Of a stretch of 20,168 nt of DNA, positions 1-13,431 are shown one piece after another (position 1 is the first letter of the stretch; each line of letters starts with the position of its first letter). The stretch comes from a virus, in the IMG/VR virus record IMGVR_UViG_3300043435_000705, positions 1-20,168 of that record, one strand, 5' to 3'. Below the pieces are notes generated by a model. The model did no database searches, had not been told where the DNA came from, and worked only from the letters and a program-made list of their open reading frames with translations. The position numbers and the translations under genes are program-made.

Positions 1-54
1 GTGGATACGAGTAGAAACAATAATGACTCAAAAGGTTCTCAAAAACAGGTGTAA
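1..54 (+). CDS. C-terminal tail of an upstream gene (partial, uncertain)
   Basis: Frame 1 is open from the window edge to a TAA at 52-54, giving 17 residues ending S-K-G-S-Q-K-Q-V. A terminator hairpin follows about 50 bases later, which fits the end of a transcription unit. The frame starting at base 2 is also open, to a TAG at 116-118, but it would run through the terminator and is lysine-rich, so I prefer frame 1. Nothing can be said about function. Confidence 0.3.
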   Translation: MDTSRNNNDSKGSQKQV

Positions 55-105
55 TCTCAGCCTTATATTTAAAAACAAAAAATCTTATAAGAAAAAAAAA
101 TTAAT

Positions 106-1819: not shown

Positions 1820-2287
1820 ATGAAAAAAGTTATTAGATTAACAGAATCAGATTTAGTTAGAATCGTAAAAAGAGTTATTAATGAATCTGAAACTGCTGCA
1901 ACAGGTGGTGCAAAACCAGTATCTACTGAAAATGGAAAAAACGCATTTAAATTAATAAAGGCGGGAGTTGACGGTAATAATAAAGATACTATGGCAAAAG
2001 GGATTTATACTATTAAAACAAAAGAAGATTACGATACTGTCATGAGACATATTCATAAATATATTGGTAAGTACCCAACTATTTTGGGTTATTTAGCTAG
2101 TGTTTGGGAAAAAGTTAGTCAAGGTTCAAATTTGTTTGGTATATGGTCTAGCTCCAATAATTGGTTAAGTGATTTGGAGAGACATTTATACCAATTCAAC
2201 ACTAATGAATCTGCCGCAACTACAAGTGCTATGGGTAATTCACCAGGTAGAACTTTTAATGATGGTACTTTTAAGCCGAGAAATTAA
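1820..2287 (+). CDS. Virion-type protein with conserved N-terminal leader peptide
   Basis: A 155-residue protein of unknown function. Its N-terminus contains LTESDLVRIVKRVINE, with the core IVKRV(I/L)NE shared with the protein at 12160; the DNA is identical over 15 bases (1862-1876 and 12193-12207). The segment ends in I-N-E followed by S, which fits the (L/I)-x-E cleavage rule of T4-type prohead proteases, so it may be a removable capsid-targeting peptide (inference). Residues about 60-85 (IKTKEDYDTVMRHIHKYIGKY) resemble residues 111-131 of the preceding gene's product. The last part is Ser/Asn-rich. The gene ends just before a bidirectional terminator, and its own TATTTATA motif suggests independent transcription. 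Confidence 0.8.
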   Translation: MKKVIRLTESDLVRIVKRVINESETAATGGAKPVSTENGKNAFKLIKAGVDGNNKDTMAKGIYTIKTKEDYDTVMRHIHKYIGKYPTILGYLASVWEKVSQGSNLFGIWSSSNNWLSDLERHLYQFNTNESAATTSAMGNSPGRTFNDGTFKPRN

Positions 2288-2301
2288 AATTTTATATATA
2301 A

Positions 2302-2329
2302 AAAAAAGGAGGATTATACCTCCTTTTTT
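2302..2329. terminator. Bidirectional terminator between convergent genes
   Basis: AAAAAAGGAGG (2302-2312) pairs with CCTCCTTTTTT (2319-2329) around a 6-base loop. It has U-tracts in both directions and serves the plus-strand gene at 1820 and the minus-strand rhomboid. The rhomboid stop codon (2314-2316) lies in the loop. Confidence 0.9.
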
Positions 2330-3042
2330 AATTTAATATAGGTTAAAAATATTACCCCCCCAACCATTCCACCAATGTGACCAACTGACGAACCCAAGTA
2401 GTCGTAATCCAGAGGAAAAAAATTCATTATATTTAAATATATTTCATATAAACCAATACCAATCAACACAAACACCCCAATTTTTTTAATCTGTCTTATG
2501 TTAAAAATTATAAACGCGGTGATAAAACCAAAAACAGATCCAGACGCACCAATACCGGAATAGTTTGATTTTATATATCGTTCTATAATTTTACGAGTTT
2601 CTTTTGGATAGAAATAGGAATTAAATTCGTTGAGTTTTTTATAATCAATACCTATATTTGTTAGTTTTTTTGATGTATATTCAAATTCTGAATTCTGTGA
2701 CAAATTATAAAATAACCCACAACTTATACCAGATAATAGATACATCAGAATGTATTTTTTAAACCCAAACATCCTTTCAAACGAAACTGAAAATAACACT
2801 AAAAAAATTAAGTTTAATATTATATGGATTGGATAATAATAACTATGAACAAACATAGATGTTAATAGTTGATAAATTCTAAAATTATCTGAATGTGTTG
2901 AATAAACACCCAAATAACTATTAATATCGAATGAAAAACAAAATAAAGAAATTAAACTAACTAAATAAACACCAAGGTTTATCCCAACGATTAATTTCAC
3001 CCCCTTTGGTAAATTAACAAAATATGATTTGATTTTTTTCAT
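2314..3042 (-). CDS. Rhomboid-family intramembrane serine protease
   Basis: Rhomboids cut transmembrane helices of membrane proteins within the lipid bilayer. This 242-residue protein has about six hydrophobic segments and the expected motifs: H73-x3-N77 in the second segment, G-A-S-G (165-168) with catalytic Ser167, and G-H-I-G-G with catalytic His222. The length is usual for a bacterial GlpG-type core without cytoplasmic domain. A hydrophilic insert of about 45 residues (113-160) lies before the serine helix. The C-terminal K-K-E-V is encoded by the terminator stem. Transcription probably starts from a host-type promoter (3047-3077) whose -7 element lies 4 bases before the ATG, so the mRNA may be nearly leaderless. 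The gene lies directly downstream of the tmRNA. Rhomboids are uncommon in phages; the substrate is unknown. Confidence 0.9.
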   Translation of the reverse strand: MKKIKSYFVNLPKGVKLIVGINLGVYLVSLISLFCFSFDINSYLGVYSTHSDNFRIYQLLTSMFVHSYYYPIHIILNLIFLVLFSVSFERMFGFKKYILMYLLSGISCGLFYNLSQNSEFEYTSKKLTNIGIDYKKLNEFNSYFYPKETRKIIERYIKSNYSGIGASGSVFGFITAFIIFNIRQIKKIGVFVLIGIGLYEIYLNIMNFFPLDYDYLGSSVGHIGGMVGGVIFLTYIKLKKEV

Positions 3043-3046
3043 ACAA

Positions 3047-3077
3047 CAAAGGTAATATTATTTTTTAAATAAACAAA
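3047..3077 (-). promoter_or_regulatory. Bacteroidota-type promoter for the rhomboid gene
   Basis: On the minus strand TTTG (3077-3074), exactly 19 bases, then TACCTTTG (3054-3047) match the Bacteroidota housekeeping consensus TTTG-N19-TAnnTTTG. Four bases (TTGT) separate the -7 element from the ATG. The -33 element overlaps the U-tract of the tmRNA terminator. Confidence 0.7.
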
Positions 3078-3105
3078 AAAAACCCCACCATAATTAAATG
3101 ATGGG
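3075..3105 (-). terminator. Rho-independent terminator of the tmRNA gene
   Basis: On the minus strand CCCATCAT (3105-3098) pairs with ATGGTGGG (3091-3084), with one U-G wobble, around a 6-base loop; a run of T follows (3082-3075). It lies 9 bases after the tmRNA 3' end. Confidence 0.85.
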
Positions 3106-3113
3106 ATTTAAAG

Positions 3114-3521
3114 TGGATCCGGAGGGATTCGAACCCTCGTCCGGTTCGTCTTGTCTAAAAGACAACTACATGCTTAGGTTGGTATTTTCTAACACCCCAA
3201 ACTATCTAATTTTAATTTGATTAGAAACAAAGTTGATTTGTTCTTCACCATCGTAAATCAACAACCAATAGACGATTCGATTTCGGGTTCAATCGTAATT
3301 CACCTTAAAGGACTTCTGTTGCTAGGTTATATATCCACCGACCCCCGTTTCCGTAAACTTCTTAAGCTACAGTAACTTCAGAACCTCTTACTAATCCAAG
3401 AGTTTCCATTTTGTTTAGCACATTGCCAGTTGTTTTTGTAAATCAGTTTTTAACGAGATTAATTCAGTCTCGACATGCTTCCTTTATTCAACCAACGCCC
3501 GTCAAATCCAAAAACGGACCC
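3114..3521 (-). ncRNA. ssrA: Transfer-messenger RNA (tmRNA)
   Basis: tmRNA rescues stalled ribosomes and appends a degradation tag. The 5' end GGGUCCG (3521-3515) and 3' CGGAUCC (3121-3115) form a 7-bp acceptor stem with the G3-U70 wobble that alanyl-tRNA synthetase needs. The T-arm GAGGG-TTCGAAT-CCCTC is intact and the discriminator base is A (3114). CCA is not encoded. The 5' part carries the conserved GGATTTGACGGGCG and the GCATGTCGAG helix. In Bacteroidota tmRNAs the tag starts at the GGC after AACU/UAUCU; here ACT-GGC (3427-3425) opens a frame of 21 codons to TAA (3364-3362). The tag starts G-N-V-L-N-K and ends G-S-E-V-T-V-A, much longer than the usual 9-10-residue ALAA-ending tags. The resume codon is inferred by alignment from memory. 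Confidence 0.95.
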
Positions 3522-3540
3522 ATATTATCAAAGAACTTTA

Positions 3541-3548
3541 TATAAATA
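3541..3548 (-). promoter_or_regulatory. TATTTATA motif upstream of tmRNA
   Basis: On the minus strand TATTTATA ends 19 bases before the mature 5' end of the tmRNA. Its context (GTATTTATATA) matches that upstream of the gene at 1820. The 51-base gap to the divergent gene at 3573 must hold signals for both. Confidence 0.4.
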
Positions 3549-3560
3549 CAAATATAAATA

Positions 3561-3568
3561 TATTTATT
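3561..3568 (+). promoter_or_regulatory. TATTTATT motif upstream of the gene at 3573
   Basis: ATATATTTATT ends 4 bases before the ATG, the same short spacing as at 8379-8386. If it is a promoter -10 element the transcript would be almost leaderless; it could instead be an A/T-rich translation-start context. Confidence 0.3.
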
Positions 3569-3572
3569 TAAT

Positions 3573-4619
3573 ATGGCAAGTGAAACATACGAATTTTTAA
3601 AAAAAATCGCTCAAGGTGAAGAAATTAGTAGATGGGAATATCCAGATAAACTAATTTCATATGTTGATTATAGAAGTAAGATACCAAAAATCACAATAAC
3701 ATTTGATGATGATGATGACTTTTTAGATATTTTTGATATTGATCGTGATAGTGATGATAGATACGCTTGGGCTAAATTTATGGGTAATTATTATAGTGAT
3801 GATTACGATAGATATCGATATGAGGATGATTGGGATGAAGGTTATATTATTCAAAACTTCAATCATACAAATATTGAAAAACTTGAAACTATTTTAAGAC
3901 TAACCAACCCAACTTTAAAACTTGGGGATGACAATAGATCGGAAGTTGCGAAATTCCTTGATAAAATGTTTTCAAGTCAGATTGATGAATTGGTCTATGA
4001 TTATGGGTTAGCACACAGTGAATGTGTTACAAGAGCTGTTAAAGAAACAATATTAAAAGATGTTAAGAATCCATTTTATAAATTTGGCATTATTGAAATG
4101 ACAACTGCGTATAAGTTTCAAACATCTGTTAAAATACTTCTCAAATTATATAATTTGTTAGAAGCCGAAGATGAAGATTTAAAAGGTTTATTAAAATTAA
4201 TATATGAAAAATATGGTGATAAAAGTGTTGGTGGTTGGAATGAATTAGAATATAATGCTTGGTGTGATGATTATGATAAAGAAAGCGAACAAGAAAATAT
4301 TGGTAAAGTTTTAGATAGTATAATAGAGTCCGTTGAAGATGATTTGAGTGATGAAATTGTTGATTTTGATGAATATAATAAATTATATGCTATGGTTCTT
4401 AAGCTCGGTGGTTTTAATAAATTAATTAAATTTCCAGAAAAAAATATTGAAGTTGTTTTTGAAGATATAAATATAAATACAGGTAAACTAATCTTTAAGG
4501 TTTGGAAAAATAGTAAGGTTGAAAGAAGGTCTGTTGATAATATTGATGATTTAAATTTAACTCTGTATCATCCAGAATTATTTGAAAGTGTTAGAAGAAT
4601 ATTAAAAAAACTTTTATAA
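3573..4619 (+). CDS. Acidic protein of unknown function
   Basis: A 348-residue protein that I cannot assign to a family. It has a strongly acidic N-terminal third: a D-rich stretch at residues 45-62 (FDDDDDFLDIFDIDRDSDD) and a D/Y/R-rich stretch at 72-90. The middle (about 105-220) looks helical. A further acidic stretch covers about 228-270, and the basic end (VRRILKKLL) is also probably helical. There are no catalytic motifs, signal peptide or membrane segment. It is divergent from the tmRNA and is followed after 27 bases by the metallopeptidase gene, which has its own host-type -7 element. Its composition could suit nucleic-acid mimicry or a protein-binding role, but that is only a guess. 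Confidence 0.75.
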   Translation: MASETYEFLKKIAQGEEISRWEYPDKLISYVDYRSKIPKITITFDDDDDFLDIFDIDRDSDDRYAWAKFMGNYYSDDYDRYRYEDDWDEGYIIQNFNHTNIEKLETILRLTNPTLKLGDDNRSEVAKFLDKMFSSQIDELVYDYGLAHSECVTRAVKETILKDVKNPFYKFGIIEMTTAYKFQTSVKILLKLYNLLEAEDEDLKGLLKLIYEKYGDKSVGGWNELEYNAWCDDYDKESEQENIGKVLDSIIESVEDDLSDEIVDFDEYNKLYAMVLKLGGFNKLIKFPEKNIEVVFEDININTGKLIFKVWKNSKVERRSVDNIDDLNLTLYHPELFESVRRILKKLL

Positions 4620-4634
4620 ATCAAATATTATTTC

Positions 4635-4642
4635 TATATTTG
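4635..4642 (+). promoter_or_regulatory. Bacteroidota-type -7 element (TATATTTG)
   Basis: TATATTTG fits TAnnTTTG and lies 4 bases before the ATG at 4647, the same spacing as for the rhomboid gene. At the expected -33 position (4612-4615, 19 bases upstream) the sequence is TTTT, only a partial match to TTTG. Confidence 0.45.
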
Positions 4643-4646
4643 TGGT

Positions 4647-5432
4647 ATGGAAAGAAATTTTGGATTATTAAAAGAAATATTATCAATTCCCACAAAAACT
4701 TATCAAGAAGGTTTAATGGTTGAGTTTATTTGTAATTGGTTGGAAGAGAATAAAATTCCATTCTATGTGGATCAATTCAATAATATTTACGCGACAAAAC
4801 AAACTGAAGATTATGTTCCCCATTTTCCTTGTGTTGTTGCTCATACGGATACGGTTCATAATTTAGACTCAATAAATGTTGTCGAAGAAATGCTTCCGAA
4901 TGCACAAGGGGAAATAAAATTAGCACTCAAGGCTTATAATAATAACGAAAATCCAACTGGTATTGGTGGGGACGATAAATGTGGTGTGTTTGCTTGTCTT
5001 GAGTTATTAAAAGAATTACCAAATTTAAAAGCCGCATTTTTTGTCGCTGAAGAAACTGGGTGTAAAGGTTCTTTTAATTCGGATCCGGTGTTTTTTGAAA
5101 GTGTTGGTTATGCAATTCAGTTTGATGCCCCGGAAAATAATATGATTTCTGAATATCTGATGAGCAAACCTATGTTTGATAGGGATTCTGAATTTTTTAA
5201 TGTTGGTGGTCGTTTAATTACAGAACACTTTCCAGGTGATACACAATATCACAAACACCCATATACAGACATATATCCAATAAATCAGATGTATAATATT
5301 TCTTGTTTTAATATATCAATTGGTTATTACAATTATCACACACGAAACGAATATGTTGTTGTTGAAGACACATACAATGGTATTAAAGTCGGTAAGTTAA
5401 TGATTGAAGAACTTGGTTATACCAAACACTAA
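4647..5432 (+). CDS. M20/M28-like zinc metallopeptidase, compact form
   Basis: Probably a cytoplasmic di-zinc exopeptidase (aminopeptidase or tripeptidase type). The 261 residues show the family signatures in order: V-A-H-T-D-T (H66 and D68), G-I-G-G-D-D (bridging Asp at 109/110), E-E-T-G (E135 and E136), Q-F-D-A-P (D160) and Y-N-Y-H-T (H231). It is much shorter than typical M20 peptidases (about 370-410 residues): the inserted dimerisation or lid domain is missing or reduced to about 50 residues after D160, so it may resemble M28 enzymes in fold. No signal peptide is present. A host-type -7 element precedes the start. The neighbouring tmRNA and Clp genes suggest a role in peptide recycling during infection, but the substrate is unknown. 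Confidence 0.85.
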   Translation: MERNFGLLKEILSIPTKTYQEGLMVEFICNWLEENKIPFYVDQFNNIYATKQTEDYVPHFPCVVAHTDTVHNLDSINVVEEMLPNAQGEIKLALKAYNNNENPTGIGGDDKCGVFACLELLKELPNLKAAFFVAEETGCKGSFNSDPVFFESVGYAIQFDAPENNMISEYLMSKPMFDRDSEFFNVGGRLITEHFPGDTQYHKHPYTDIYPINQMYNISCFNISIGYYNYHTRNEYVVVEDTYNGIKVGKLMIEELGYTKH

Positions 5433-5434
5433 TA

Positions 5435-5463
5435 AAAAAGGAGGGTTTTTAATCCTCCTTTTT
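5435..5463. terminator. Bidirectional terminator between peptidase and Clp genes
   Basis: AAAAAGGAGG (5435-5444) pairs with CCTCCTTTTT (5454-5463) around a 9-base loop. It shares the GGAGG/CCTCC stem with the terminator at 2302-2329, and again the minus-strand stop codon (5449-5451) lies in the loop. Confidence 0.9.
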
Positions 5464-7512
5464 CTTTCTACCTTTTTTCTTTGGTTCTGGTTTTGCACCA
5501 TCCCCAATTTCTATTGTCTGGTCATCACCTTCCCCTTTGACAAATAATATATATTCTTTGTCTTCCTGAACATTACCCAATAATATTTTTTCAGAAATTA
5601 AATCTTCTATTTTATCTTGGATTGCCCGTTTAATTGGTCTGGCACCATATTGTTCGTCAAAACCAACTTTAGCGATTAAATCTATTACCGAATTTTCATA
5701 CGATACTTTGTATTTCATTGATGTTAATCTACCAATTAGTTTGTCAATTTCAAGTTTAACAATTTTATCAATGTGTTCTTTTTTCAAAGAGTTAAAGATT
5801 ACAACATCATCAATCCTATTTAAAAATTCTGGAGCAAAAAACTTACTTAATTCTTTCTTCAGAATATCTCTCTTATATTCTTCTTGAACAACATCACTAT
5901 TACTTGTTGACTTAAACCCAACACCGGTTCCAAATTCTTGTAATTTTTTAACACCAATATTTGATGTCATAATAATTAAACAATTTTTAAAGTTAATTTT
6001 TCTACCAAGACCATCAGTTAAATGTCCATCATCTAACATTTGAAGAAGTGTTGCAAAAATATCTTTATTCGCTTTTTCAATTTCATCAAATAAGATTACA
6101 GAATACGGTTTGTTTTTAACTTGTTCTGTTAGTTGTCCACCTTCTTCGTGACCAACATATCCTGGAGGAGATCCGATTAAACGAGATATCGTGTGTTTTT
6201 CTTGATATTCAGACATATCAACTCTAATTAGATTATCTTCATTACCAAAAATTTCTTTTGCCAATTTTTTCGCTAAGAATGTTTTACCAACACCAGTTGA
6301 ACCAAGGAAAATGAATGAACCTATCGGTCTATTTGGATCCTTAATCCCTACTCTATTTCTTCTAATTGCCTTTGAAATCTTTTTAACTGCTTCTTCTTGA
6401 CCTATTACCGAACTACCTAAAGAACTTTCCAAATTCACCAATGAATTTTTTTCATCAATATTGATTTTACTCACCGGTATTTTTGTCATATTAGATACAA
6501 CTTCATAAATTAATTCTTCAGGAATACCTCGTTTACTATTTTTTAGTTCTTCTTCGAATTTTTTCTTTTCATCATCAAGTTTTGATAAGATATTTTTTTC
6601 ACGATCACGAAGTTCTGCTGCTAATTCGTATTTTTGTTTTTTAATAACATCAACCTTTTCTAATTTAATATCCGCCGCTTCTTGTTTTAATTTTTCTATA
6701 TGTTCCGGAAGTTTTATATCAATTTGCATTCTTGAACCAACCTCATCTAAAATATCAAAGGCTTTATCTGGAAATTCACGATCAGTAATATATCTATCGG
6801 CTAATTCAACACATAGTAGTAATGATTCATCTGTATAATTTACTTTATGATGTTCTTCATATTTTTCTTTACTTTGTTTTAAAATTTCAAATGTTTCTTG
6901 TTTTGTTGATGGGTCAACAATAATTTTTTGAAATCTTCTTTCTAACGCACCATCTTTTTCAAAATGTTTTCTATACTCATCAAGAGTTGTTGCACCAATA
7001 CATTGGATTTCACCCCTTGATAAGGCCGGTTTAAAGATGTTTGATGCATCCAAAGACCCAGAACTATTTCCGGCTCCAACCATTGTATGAATTTCGTCAA
7101 TAAAGATTATAATGTTTGGGTTTTGTTGAAGTTCTTCAATTATTACCTTCATTCTTTCTTCAAACTGACCACGATATTTTGTCCCAGCAACAATTGAATT
7201 AATATCTAACGATACAATTCTCTTATCTGATAAATTTTTAGGACATTCACCATCGTGAATCATCATAGCTAAACCTTCAACAATGGCAGTTTTACCCGCA
7301 CCAGGTTCACCAATAATAATTGGATTATTCTTTTTCCTTCTGGATAACACTTGTGCTATTCTTAAAATTTCTTTTTTTCTACCTATTACCGGATCTAATT
7401 TACCTTGTTCGGCTAATTTAATTAAATCTTTACTGAAGTTATCCAACACTGGTGTTCCACCATCACCTTTTTTTTTGTTTTTGTCTCCGTCATCTACAAA
7501 TTCTATTGCCAT
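5449..7512 (-). CDS. clpC: ClpC-like AAA+ unfoldase lacking the N-domain
   Basis: A two-ring Clp/Hsp100 ATPase that would unfold proteins and feed them to a ClpP peptidase. Of 687 residues, D1 has Walker A GEPGAGKT (68-75) and Walker B IIFIDE (135-140). A short middle coiled coil (about 268-325) carries a UVR-like motif (YELAAELRD, 295-303). D2 has GSTGVGKT (404-411), VILFDE (472-477), arginine-finger segment FLNRID (563-568) and sensor-2 GARPIKRA (623-630). The V-G-F tripeptide at 531-533 is in the position of the ClpP-docking loop of ClpC; ClpB disaggregases lack it. The protein begins at the segment TPVLDNF, which in ClpC follows the N-domain, so the usual adaptor-binding N-domain of about 140 residues is absent and replaced by a short charged tail. 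No clpP is in the window, so it presumably uses the host's. A Lys-rich C-terminal tail is encoded across the terminator. Confidence 0.95.
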   Translation of the reverse strand: MAIEFVDDGDKNKKKGDGGTPVLDNFSKDLIKLAEQGKLDPVIGRKKEILRIAQVLSRRKKNNPIIIGEPGAGKTAIVEGLAMMIHDGECPKNLSDKRIVSLDINSIVAGTKYRGQFEERMKVIIEELQQNPNIIIFIDEIHTMVGAGNSSGSLDASNIFKPALSRGEIQCIGATTLDEYRKHFEKDGALERRFQKIIVDPSTKQETFEILKQSKEKYEEHHKVNYTDESLLLCVELADRYITDREFPDKAFDILDEVGSRMQIDIKLPEHIEKLKQEAADIKLEKVDVIKKQKYELAAELRDREKNILSKLDDEKKKFEEELKNSKRGIPEELIYEVVSNMTKIPVSKINIDEKNSLVNLESSLGSSVIGQEEAVKKISKAIRRNRVGIKDPNRPIGSFIFLGSTGVGKTFLAKKLAKEIFGNEDNLIRVDMSEYQEKHTISRLIGSPPGYVGHEEGGQLTEQVKNKPYSVILFDEIEKANKDIFATLLQMLDDGHLTDGLGRKINFKNCLIIMTSNIGVKKLQEFGTGVGFKSTSNSDVVQEEYKRDILKKELSKFFAPEFLNRIDDVVIFNSLKKEHIDKIVKLEIDKLIGRLTSMKYKVSYENSVIDLIAKVGFDEQYGARPIKRAIQDKIEDLISEKILLGNVQEDKEYILFVKGEGDDQTIEIGDGAKPEPKKKGRKKKED

Positions 7513-7541
7513 AATTAAAAGTTTTTTTATTCAAGTTTAAT

Positions 7542-7549
7542 TATAAATA
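7542..7549 (-). promoter_or_regulatory. TATTTATA motif upstream of the Clp gene
   Basis: On the minus strand TATTTATA lies 29 bases before the ATG at 7512, the same gap as at the gene at 1820. A second minus-strand copy occurs at 7592-7599 between the two palindromes. Confidence 0.4.
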
Positions 7550-7576
7550 GGTTTTTAGTCAATATTTTTAATTAAT

Positions 7577-7589
7577 TGACAAATTGTCA
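7577..7589. promoter_or_regulatory. Palindrome TGACAA-A-TTGTCA, candidate operator
   Basis: A perfect 6-bp inverted repeat around one central base in the 174-base divergent region between the Clp and UVR genes. It shares its TGACA/TGTCA arms with the palindrome at 7608-7624, whose centre is 33 bases away, about three helical turns. Confidence 0.5.
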
Positions 7590-7607
7590 GTTATAAATAA
7601 TTATACT

Positions 7608-7624
7608 TATGACATTTTGTCATA
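7608..7624. promoter_or_regulatory. Palindrome TATGACA-TTT-TGTCATA, candidate operator
   Basis: A perfect 7-bp inverted repeat around TTT, with the same TGACA/TGTCA arms as the site at 7577-7589. Lack of a U-tract and position between divergent genes make a regulator-binding site more likely than a terminator. The regulator is unknown. Confidence 0.5.
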
Positions 7625-7686
7625 TTTTATTTTTGGTATAGTTTTAGTAAAATTGATGTCAAAATAAACCTATAAAAAATAAAAAA

Positions 7687-8055
7687 ATGTTTAGTAGAAA
7701 TTTTGAAAGATTATTTAACGAGTTCTTTAACTCTGATCCATTCTTTGGTAATGGAAATAACTGGGATAAGAAATCCTTCCAATCACCAGATGGGTCAATT
7801 TCATTTACCTATATCACAAATAAAAAAAGTGATAATAAAAAATCAGATGAATTAATATCACTAAAAGAAGAATTAAACTTAGCTGTTGAAGAACAAAATT
7901 TTGAAATGGCGGTAGAGTTGAGGGATAAAATTAAAAATCTTGAAGAAAATAACGAAAAAATAAGTGAACTTAACAAAGAACTTGAGGATTGTATTAAAAC
8001 ACAAGACTTTGAACGAGCGATAGAAGTTAGAGACAAGATTAACTCCCTAAAATAA
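7687..8055 (+). CDS. Double-UVR-motif protein, candidate Clp adaptor
   Basis: This 122-residue protein has an N-terminal hydrophobic/aromatic segment (FERLFNEFFNSDPFFG, 6-21), a linker, and two tandem UVR motifs forming helical hairpins: about 57-86 (core FEMAVELRDKIKNLE) and 93-122 (core FERAIEVRDKINSL). UVR motifs occur in UvrB, UvrC, McsA and the middle domain of ClpC, where they mediate protein-protein contact. There is no nuclease or helicase domain and no CxxC zinc site as in McsA. It is transcribed divergently from the Clp gene, whose own coiled coil carries a related motif. I infer an adaptor or regulator of that unfoldase. The N-terminal segment loosely recalls small heat-shock proteins but no alpha-crystallin domain follows. 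An alternative is interaction with UvrB or UvrC. Confidence 0.85.
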   Translation: MFSRNFERLFNEFFNSDPFFGNGNNWDKKSFQSPDGSISFTYITNKKSDNKKSDELISLKEELNLAVEEQNFEMAVELRDKIKNLEENNEKISELNKELEDCIKTQDFERAIEVRDKINSLK

Positions 8056-12159: not shown

Positions 12160-13431
12160 ATGGGAAATTTAACAAATAGAGAAATTGATAATATCGTAAA
12201 AAGAGTTTTAAACGAAGCTCCAATTGATTATGAAGGACCGGATAGAATGGATCCGAGTATAGAAAGAAAAATTTTGGGTAAGGAAACACCATATTCAAAA
12301 CACCCAGCTATGCCAAAAATGAGTAGGGATTTTGTTGAACTTGTTTCTTCAAAAAGATTTAATGATACTGTTAGTAAGTTAAGAACTGTTCTCCAAAGAA
12401 CAACTGGTTCTACAGCACAACTAAGTAGTAGAAATCCTTTAATGAGTTTAATGATGTTGGTTTCACAAGCGATTCAACAAACATCAAGAATTGAAAGTAG
12501 ATACAAAGATGACCTTGAAAATATGGCCGTTGAATTAGTTAAAAAAGAACTTGGAATACCAGCCGGACAATTACAATTTGACGCAAAACTTATTGGTACG
12601 GGTCAAAGTGAATCAACTCAAAGGATGCGAAGACAAGCTGAAGAACCATCAAGAGAAGAAATGACACAAGCTTTTAAGAGTGCTCAAGAACACGAAAATG
12701 ACGTTGAAGCATTTTTAGATGCTATGGATAATTTTGATATGGAAAGAGCAAAAAGAAGAATGATAAATGCTCTTATTGGTGGTGCAGCAAAAAAAGGACA
12801 ATATATGTATCATTTGGTTTCGGAAAAATTAAATGATATTAATCCAGATTTAATTGAATACTATAGTTTATCAACAGCAATTGTAGATCACCTATACTGG
12901 TTATACCCAGAAGAAACTTTGGCGGCAATGTCAGGACAAGGTGGTGGTGAAATTGGTACATCAGAAGTTGATGACACAACAGACCCACCAACAGTAATTG
13001 CAAGAGGTGTTAATTTTCCAACTCTGGTTCACGAACTTGTTAAAGGTGTTCACGAAGTTCTTGGAACTCAAGGACTACCTGATGACCCAAGACAAGCTGA
13101 AATGGTAATGGCGGCAGAAGATACGGTTCCAGCTGAAGCTTGGGATTTAAAATTAGGCCCAGTATTTTGGGAATTATTACAAAAATCATACCCACTTGAT
13201 ATTTTAAGTGAAGATGATAAAAAACACATTCAGTTGTATCTTTTTAGTAAGATAAGTGCAATGCCGGCAAAAGAATTCTTTGATTTATTTAAAGATGTGT
13301 TAGAAGAAAAACCATCTGGAAAACAAAAAATACAAAGAATGGTTGACGAACTTGTTAACGAACTAAAAGAAGATGATGAAAATGAAGAAGATGAGGAAGA
13401 TGATGATATTTTATCACAATTAGGATTATAA
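12160..13431 (+). CDS. Virion-type protein with conserved leader peptide
   Basis: A 423-residue protein of unknown function, the last gene of the operon and directly upstream of the terminase. The N-terminus LTNREIDNIVKRVLNEAP shares IVKRV(I/L)NE with the protein at 1820 and has L-N-E followed by A, an excellent match to the T4 gp21 cleavage rule. The body is mostly helical (VSSKRFNDTVSKLRTVLQRT; MLVSQAIQQTSRIESRY). Residues about 290-350 hold a well-ordered segment, ARGVNFPTLVHELVKGVHEVL followed by EAWDLKLGPVFWELL. The HELVKGVHE stretch is not a HExxH zinc site. The C-terminus is a highly acidic tail. It probably makes a head or neck structural component; this rests on position and the leader peptide. 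Confidence 0.8.
   Translation: MGNLTNREIDNIVKRVLNEAPIDYEGPDRMDPSIERKILGKETPYSKHPAMPKMSRDFVELVSSKRFNDTVSKLRTVLQRTTGSTAQLSSRNPLMSLMMLVSQAIQQTSRIESRYKDDLENMAVELVKKELGIPAGQLQFDAKLIGTGQSESTQRMRRQAEEPSREEMTQAFKSAQEHENDVEAFLDAMDNFDMERAKRRMINALIGGAAKKGQYMYHLVSEKLNDINPDLIEYYSLSTAIVDHLYWLYPEETLAAMSGQGGGEIGTSEVDDTTDPPTVIARGVNFPTLVHELVKGVHEVLGTQGLPDDPRQAEMVMAAEDTVPAEAWDLKLGPVFWELLQKSYPLDILSEDDKKHIQLYLFSKISAMPAKEFFDLFKDVLEEKPSGKQKIQRMVDELVNELKEDDENEEDEEDDDILSQLGL

Follow-up and report, generated by a model that had tools for sequence, protein, structure and literature searches.

Why would a phage keep side by side several genes that all act on the fate of proteins? The question is raised by a 20,168-base stretch of viral DNA (IMG/VR record IMGVR_UViG_3300043435_000705, positions 1 to 20,168; called the window here), which belongs to a T4-like phage (portal phrog_213, terminase, prohead protease). 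A first-pass annotation, made from the letters of the window, had described a rhomboid, a transfer-messenger RNA (tmRNA), a metallopeptidase, a ClpC-like unfoldase and a UVR protein, and all five are present and correctly placed. Relatives were collected by scans from ClpC, phage SmpB and the neighbouring nucleotidyltransferase (NTase), giving about 200 viral loci; counts of distinct relatives refer to 114 distinct ClpC proteins, one locus each. A scan of viral contigs with a generic tmRNA pattern was discarded as a linkage sample, since it mostly returned prophages inside host ssrA genes.

On balance, the comparison points to a trans-translation/Clp quality-control island of large T4-like Bacteroidota phages, in which the heat-shock response of the host would control a chaperone slot. 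The features brought out by comparison are a conserved gene block, an intact tmRNA, a conserved predicted tag, a conserved putative ClpP loop, and an operator-like element with a host counterpart.

Gene order and membership of the block

The block in the window consists of the following features.

3111 to 3521, minus strand: one-piece tmRNA with G3:U70 and tag GNVLNKMETLGLVRGSEVTVA (RF00023, covariation in relatives, tag conservation)
3362 to 3427, minus strand: tag reading frame of 21 codons and a stop; the resume codon, as read from the sequence, is GGC
3573 to 4619, plus strand: acidic protein of 348 amino acids (aa) (AlphaFold mean predicted local distance difference test score, pLDDT, 87.7)
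4647 to 5432, plus strand: compact M20-like (PepT-like) metallopeptidase (phrog_4191, 1.7e-33; active-site motifs)
5449 to 7512, minus strand: ClpC-type Hsp100 unfoldase with no N-domain, a GVGF ClpP loop and a UVR-type M-domain (Pfam, PHROG, structure-relative search, tree)
7687 to 8055, plus strand: double-UVR protein, one alternative occupant of the slot (PF02151, 1.9e-18; two UVR motifs)

The gene order KTSC, slot, ClpC, M20, 348-aa protein, tmRNA is near-invariant across the loci compared. Among the 114 distinct relatives, the M20 peptidase is present in 111, the 348-aa protein in 104 and the tmRNA in 94, which are all those with a contig long enough; in the remaining 20 the contig ends at most 844 bases past the last block gene, hence no absence is demonstrated. 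ClpC and the tmRNA share a strand in every case, with a median distance of 2.3 kb between them, and this strand is always opposite to that of the head genes. Because the order of ClpC, M20 and tmRNA repeats in more than 90 distinct relatives, the arrangement is not due to chance. The gene of the 348-aa protein lies within the block and is one of its members. A coordinated module of all five elements had been proposed, and the part of it that stands is the co-occurrence and synteny of tmRNA, peptidase and ClpC, seen in every relative with enough sequence; the dispersed distribution that would have spoken against the module does not apply to these three. The rhomboid falls out of the module, and the UVR protein is a frequent member (42/114) that can be replaced by other slot genes. 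The clustering of protein-fate genes goes further than first described, as the neighbourhood also recruits SmpB, Hsp20 and DnaK.

Such linkage could also be that of unrelated accessory genes with no joint function, their order being kept by vertical inheritance in one clade. This explanation, which we consider quite unlikely, draws on the head genes beside the block (NTase, KTSC, TerL, portal), which are equally syntenic, and on the phage ClpC being a single clade. It fits poorly with the gain of different protein-fate genes (SmpB, UVR, Hsp20, DnaK) at the same place and with one sub-clade in which a relative of 343 aa, 46% identical and in reversed orientation, has taken the position of the peptidase. 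Nor does it fit separate huge phages that encode an N-domain-less ClpC 3.7 kb from SmpB (L467) or 2-5.5 kb from the GOLLD RNA (L464 and L465, two unrelated phages of 634-642 kb whose ClpCs group with Bacteroidota ClpC, outside the window clade, in the tree). What speaks for a joint function is that genes of related function were acquired more than once at this position, together with these looser echoes in other huge phages.

The window peptidase matches Pfam M20 at 23.2 bits (7e-5), slightly below the curated cut-off of 24.6, while the reversed relative (L034) lies above it at 26.9 bits. In the window peptidase the metal and catalytic motifs AHTD, GIGGDDK, AEETG, FDAP and YHTRNE are intact, and the first three are kept in 101-105 of 106 relatives. 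A fold search with the AlphaFold model of the 348-aa protein gave no match. The rhomboid, which has a serine motif (GASG, residue 165) and a histidine motif (GHIGG, residue 221), was ruled out as a block member and is best described as accessory.

2314 to 3042, minus strand: rhomboid-family protein, accessory (PF01694, 4.6e-16; in 3 of 114 distinct relatives)

The tmRNA and its tag family

The window tmRNA matches Rfam RF00023 over its full length (model 1-374, including the tRNA-like domain) with 104.4 bits and an E-value of 3e-40, and the tmRNAs of relatives score 65-95 bits. Of the 42 consensus pairs, 30 show double changes in a covariation analysis of relatives. G3:U70, the pair that confers alanine identity, is conserved in 81 of 85 distinct tmRNAs (24 of 26 in the covariation set). 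ARAGORN reported no tmRNA on the window; across the family it detects 8 of the 85, with the correct tag in 4. As this program misses about nine tenths of the family, surveys relying on it would mostly miss these tmRNAs; two published surveys searched for tmRNA with ARAGORN (PMC7162821, PMC9004378).

The tag frame is open in all 85 distinct relatives and encodes 21-22 aa of the consensus form G[ND]V[LI]xK[ML]xxxGL[IVL]Rxx(E)...VA. The tags end in VTVA, VVA, VAVA and similar, and an LAA or ALAA ending occurs in none of the 85. These tags differ from those of Bacteroidota hosts, which have 9-10 aa and an LAA ending, e.g., GENNYALAA. The ratio of nonsynonymous to synonymous polymorphism (pN/pS) is 0.47 in frame, compared with 0.81 and 1.23 in the shifted frames, which contain stops in 61/62 and 55/62 sequences. 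The tag motif was also searched in phage proteomes outside the tmRNA, with no meaningful match. These data suggest that the tag is a selectively conserved phage-specific peptide, its translation being predicted from the frame; it may act as a degron, protect the tagged protein or serve as a handle for aggregation.

The phage tmRNA resembles that of bacterial trans-translation (tmRNA RF00023 and SmpB, leading to ClpXP/ClpAP) in its one-piece fold, the G3:U70 pair, the Bacteroidota-like GGC resume codon and the SmpB found in part of the clade. It differs in the long tag without LAA and in its linkage to ClpC, not ClpX. Phage-borne tmRNAs have been reported in mycobacteriophages, Bacillus phage G, huge phages and Melnitz, with SmpB also in huge phages (PMC4131195, PMC7162821, PMC9004378); the portions of these reports available to us describe neither a linked Clp/peptidase block nor a shared tag family. 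A different large phage (L454, G038:147001-167000) carries SmpB, ClpP and a tmRNA with another long tag, GKTNVWDAINAFGAPVAEVEYAVAA, with no ClpC adjoining.

The ClpC unfoldase, the slot genes and SmpB

The closest solved relative of the window ClpC is S. aureus ClpC (E 1e-217), the alignment starting at ClpC residue 156. The phage protein has two AAA+ domains with Walker and pore motifs retained. It shares the D1 domain, UVR-type M-domain, D2 domain and ClpP loop with ClpC/MecB of Bacillota and Bacteroidota, and differs from them in lacking the N-domain, with 687 aa compared to 841-862 aa in Bacteroidota hosts. The adaptor-binding domain Clp_N was found neither in the window ClpC nor elsewhere in 10 long phage contigs, and no ClpS was found elsewhere in the phages searched. 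All 114 distinct ClpC proteins have a putative ClpP-docking loop of the form [VIML]GF. In the tree, the clade ClpCs sampled form one group (Shimodaira-Hasegawa-like approximate likelihood ratio test, SH-aLRT, 100) on a long branch, which is consistent with an old acquisition. Two loci (L361, L378) have ClpC in two pieces about 3.5 kb apart, possibly reflecting an intein or intron.

The docking loop bears on another explanation, in which ClpC and its slot partner would disaggregate head proteins or chaperone their assembly, tmRNA rescue is independent, and the tag is unlinked to ClpC. The block adjoins portal and terminase genes, and ClpA/ClpX-like proteins of jumbo phages have been proposed as virion-assembly aids (PMC7824862). 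A role in virion assembly is nonetheless unlikely, given that the loop kept in every ClpC is absent from a pure disaggregase such as ClpB, and that ClpC and tmRNA never share the strand of the head genes.

The slot, divergent from ClpC, is occupied by a UVR protein in 42 of the 114 distinct loci, by Hsp20 in 10 and by full-length DnaK in 8, and these occupants are nearly mutually exclusive. The UVR protein has a weak match to McsA through its UVR motifs. As with the known UVR partners of Clp, McsA of Bacillota and chloroplast ClpF (PMC8889267, PMC7966870), a small UVR protein stands beside a UVR-bearing ClpC; zinc fingers and a YccV domain are unmatched in the phage protein, and its adaptor role is putative. 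Side by side with ClpC in about 55 loci (e.g., L319:11654-12052) is a protein of 95-130 aa with the motif RKFFQKEGWTEYDL and no Pfam match.

SmpB lies beside the tmRNA in 18 of the 114 distinct loci, mostly 0.5-2 kb beyond it and in at least two sub-lineages, and passes NCBIfam curated cut-offs for SsrA-binding protein. In some loci a SET-domain protein is encoded between SmpB and tmRNA (e.g., L327:10464-10856). Of the 30 long contigs examined, 9 have a ClpP gene away from the block, several jumbo genomes among them. The co-occurrence of SmpB and ClpP in jumbo contigs is suggestive; yet one contig (G052) encodes SmpB and no ClpP, and the contigs are relatives of one another. One locus has a host-type TonB-receptor-like gene after the tmRNA (L071:15084-18359), and its contig may be chimeric, making its ClpP (L082) less certain.

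Promoters, a candidate heat-shock-type operator and the proposed pathway

Upstream of the tmRNA and between ClpC and the slot gene, three elements were predicted in the window.

3549 to 3579, minus strand: Bacteroidota-type tmRNA promoter, TTG-N20-TATATTTG, predicted by consensus match
7577 to 7589, no strand assigned: operator-like palindrome TGACAAATTGTCA, a TGACA-N3-TGTCA match
7610 to 7638, plus strand: putative operator TGACATTTTGTCA, 10 nucleotides (nt), then TTGGTA; by sequence match, a copy of a host dnaK-type stress promoter facing the UVR gene

The Bacteroidota promoter consensus is TTG-N17-21-TAnnTTTG. It is found upstream of 75 of 84 distinct tmRNAs (1.0 expected), and is enriched at M20 (49/125, 2.7 expected) and ClpC (27/136, 3.2 expected). 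An excess of the T4-like late element TATAAATA is seen at the gene of the 348-aa protein (61/116, 8.6 expected) and at SmpB (8/38, 1.1 expected).

The palindrome TGACA-N3-TGTCA has two copies between ClpC and the slot gene of the window, where 0.03 are expected, and occurs upstream of 64 of 137 ClpC genes (0.0 expected); in 3.5 Mb it was counted 115 times, and all but 2 of these sites are at ClpC. Its presence varies with slot content: 28 of 39 loci with UVR, 7 of 10 with Hsp20, 3 of 8 with DnaK, 5 of 37 with other content and none of 15 with SmpB and no UVR. A TGGCA-like box follows 10-12 nt past the palindrome in 32 of 55 palindrome-bearing phage upstreams, facing the slot gene and never ClpC.

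In Flavobacteriaceae genomes, 71 palindrome sites were read, with 21 upstream of dnaK and 2 upstream of htpG, and the spacing from palindrome to box is mostly 11 nt in phages and hosts alike. The htpG sites carry a TGGTA box and, judged by eye, adjoin a divergent TetR-like regulator gene, a candidate for the operator-binding factor. The extended element TGACA-N3-TGTCA-N10-12-TGGCA has 4 matches in 118 genomes from across the phylum, 3 upstream of dnaK and 1 upstream of grpE-dnaJ, with 0 for a control pattern. These data suggest that it is likely a heat-shock operator of Flavobacteriaceae, where sites at dnaK, grpE-dnaJ and htpG are exemplified by L471, L472, L481 and L544-L547. As only 4 of the 118 genomes have it, it was rejected as a general Bacteroidota trait and is mainly found in Flavobacteriaceae. 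The lon gene was rejected as a regulon member, since the 18 sites near it fall inside the coding start (LDSLS codons) and are an artefact.

Together these elements suggest a pathway for the quality-control island. The phage tmRNA, driven by an ordinary host-type promoter, would accept alanine and, together with the SmpB of the host (or that of the phage, if it has one), load onto stalled ribosomes, where it would add the phage-specific tag. Phage ClpC, having kept the ClpP-docking loop and lost the N-domain that binds host adaptors, would then unfold tagged or aggregated proteins and hand them to host ClpP or, in some jumbo genomes, to a ClpP of the phage. Substrates would be prepared or delivered by the slot protein, be it UVR, Hsp20 or DnaK, and the M20 enzyme would trim the peptides. 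Host proteotoxic stress, that of infection included, would switch on the slot gene through the copied host heat-shock operator and promoter. We infer four of these elements: the tag as a ClpC degron, the UVR protein as an adaptor, peptide trimming, and stress induction. A stricter version, a private circuit in which the tag is read by phage ClpC and its slot partner, not by host ClpXP, the slot is switched by the host heat-shock regulator, and GOLLD is included, is a tentative proposal of low probability.

Redirection of host proteolysis or recycling of peptides, as first suggested for this locus, is possible. An offensive use of this kind would have tmRNA, ClpC and peptidase divert host proteins and host ClpP, with nascent host chains tagged after host mRNA is cut and their amino acids recycled for virions; a similar idea was proposed for phage Melnitz (PMC9004378). 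The near-universal peptidase (111/114), the retained ClpP loop and a host-type tmRNA promoter that could act early would all suit it. The conserved non-host tag, the Hsp20 or DnaK in the slot and the heat-shock-type promoter fit folding maintenance better than bulk degradation, and we regard offensive use as doubtful. The combination of a host-heat-shock-type slot promoter and a private conserved tag argues for phage quality control rather than for redirected proteolysis or peptide recycling.

Several points weigh against the quality-control island. The case is built from comparison of sequences throughout. All carriers of the block belong to one clade, so the linkage is in part inheritance and cannot by itself prove joint function, and the neighbouring head genes are just as syntenic. 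More than half of the loci have no UVR, Hsp20 or DnaK beside ClpC, and there the slot partner is not obligatory. The operator is missing from 11 of 39 UVR loci, and most of the phages, with no ClpP gene found, would depend on host ClpP.

A second RNA lies beyond the tmRNA; the contig end cuts through it, so that its 3' end is what the window holds.

1 to 63, plus strand: 3' end of the GOLLD RNA (RF02032, 61 bits, model 354-416, E 1e-15)

This fragment scores below the gathering score, which is set for the whole RNA. A complete copy with 221 bits is present in a near-identical phage (L359:1342-1689), whose ClpC is identical to that of the window, and relatives score well above the gathering score. 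Where the sequence runs on for 3.5 kb or more past the tmRNA (66 distinct loci), GOLLD is found beyond it in 51, on the opposite strand in 50 and at a median of 0.7 kb; the observation covers the window fragment, the complete copy and 109 loci. GOLLD has been described as a 14-mer cage RNA found near tRNA islands, with ribosome binding in pull-downs, in a paper that makes no mention of tmRNA (PMC12286853). The RNA here resembles it as a phage RNA and differs in standing beside a tmRNA instead of a tRNA island.

ClpP, ClpA/ClpX, ClpS and Hsp20 have been recorded singly in jumbo phages, in an account of their Clp, Hsp20 and DnaJ proteins (PMC7824862); the present locus differs in its fixed block with tmRNA, the DnaK of some loci and the host-type stress promoter. 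The openly searchable literature, subscription papers lying outside it, yielded no report of this gene combination, of the tag family or of a captured heat-shock operator. Phage tmRNA, SmpB, ClpP and Hsp20 are thus known singly, while the assembly, the tag family and the stress wiring appear new. If the reading is true, ribosome rescue, a tag, an unfoldase and chaperones would travel together with a host stress operator as a phage quality-control island, and viruses would be rerouting the output of trans-translation. The analysis also supplies a conserved, testable phage tag family overlooked by the standard tmRNA finder and a candidate Flavobacteriaceae heat-shock operator, and it places GOLLD, long without an assigned function, beside stalled-ribosome rescue.

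An N-terminal motif resembling RLTESDLxRIVKRVINE recurs in several unrelated phage proteins, both elsewhere in the window (1820-2287 and 12160-13431) and in two other loci (L012:15191-15652; L031:14469-14738); it is perhaps a capsid-targeting sequence cut by the prohead protease.

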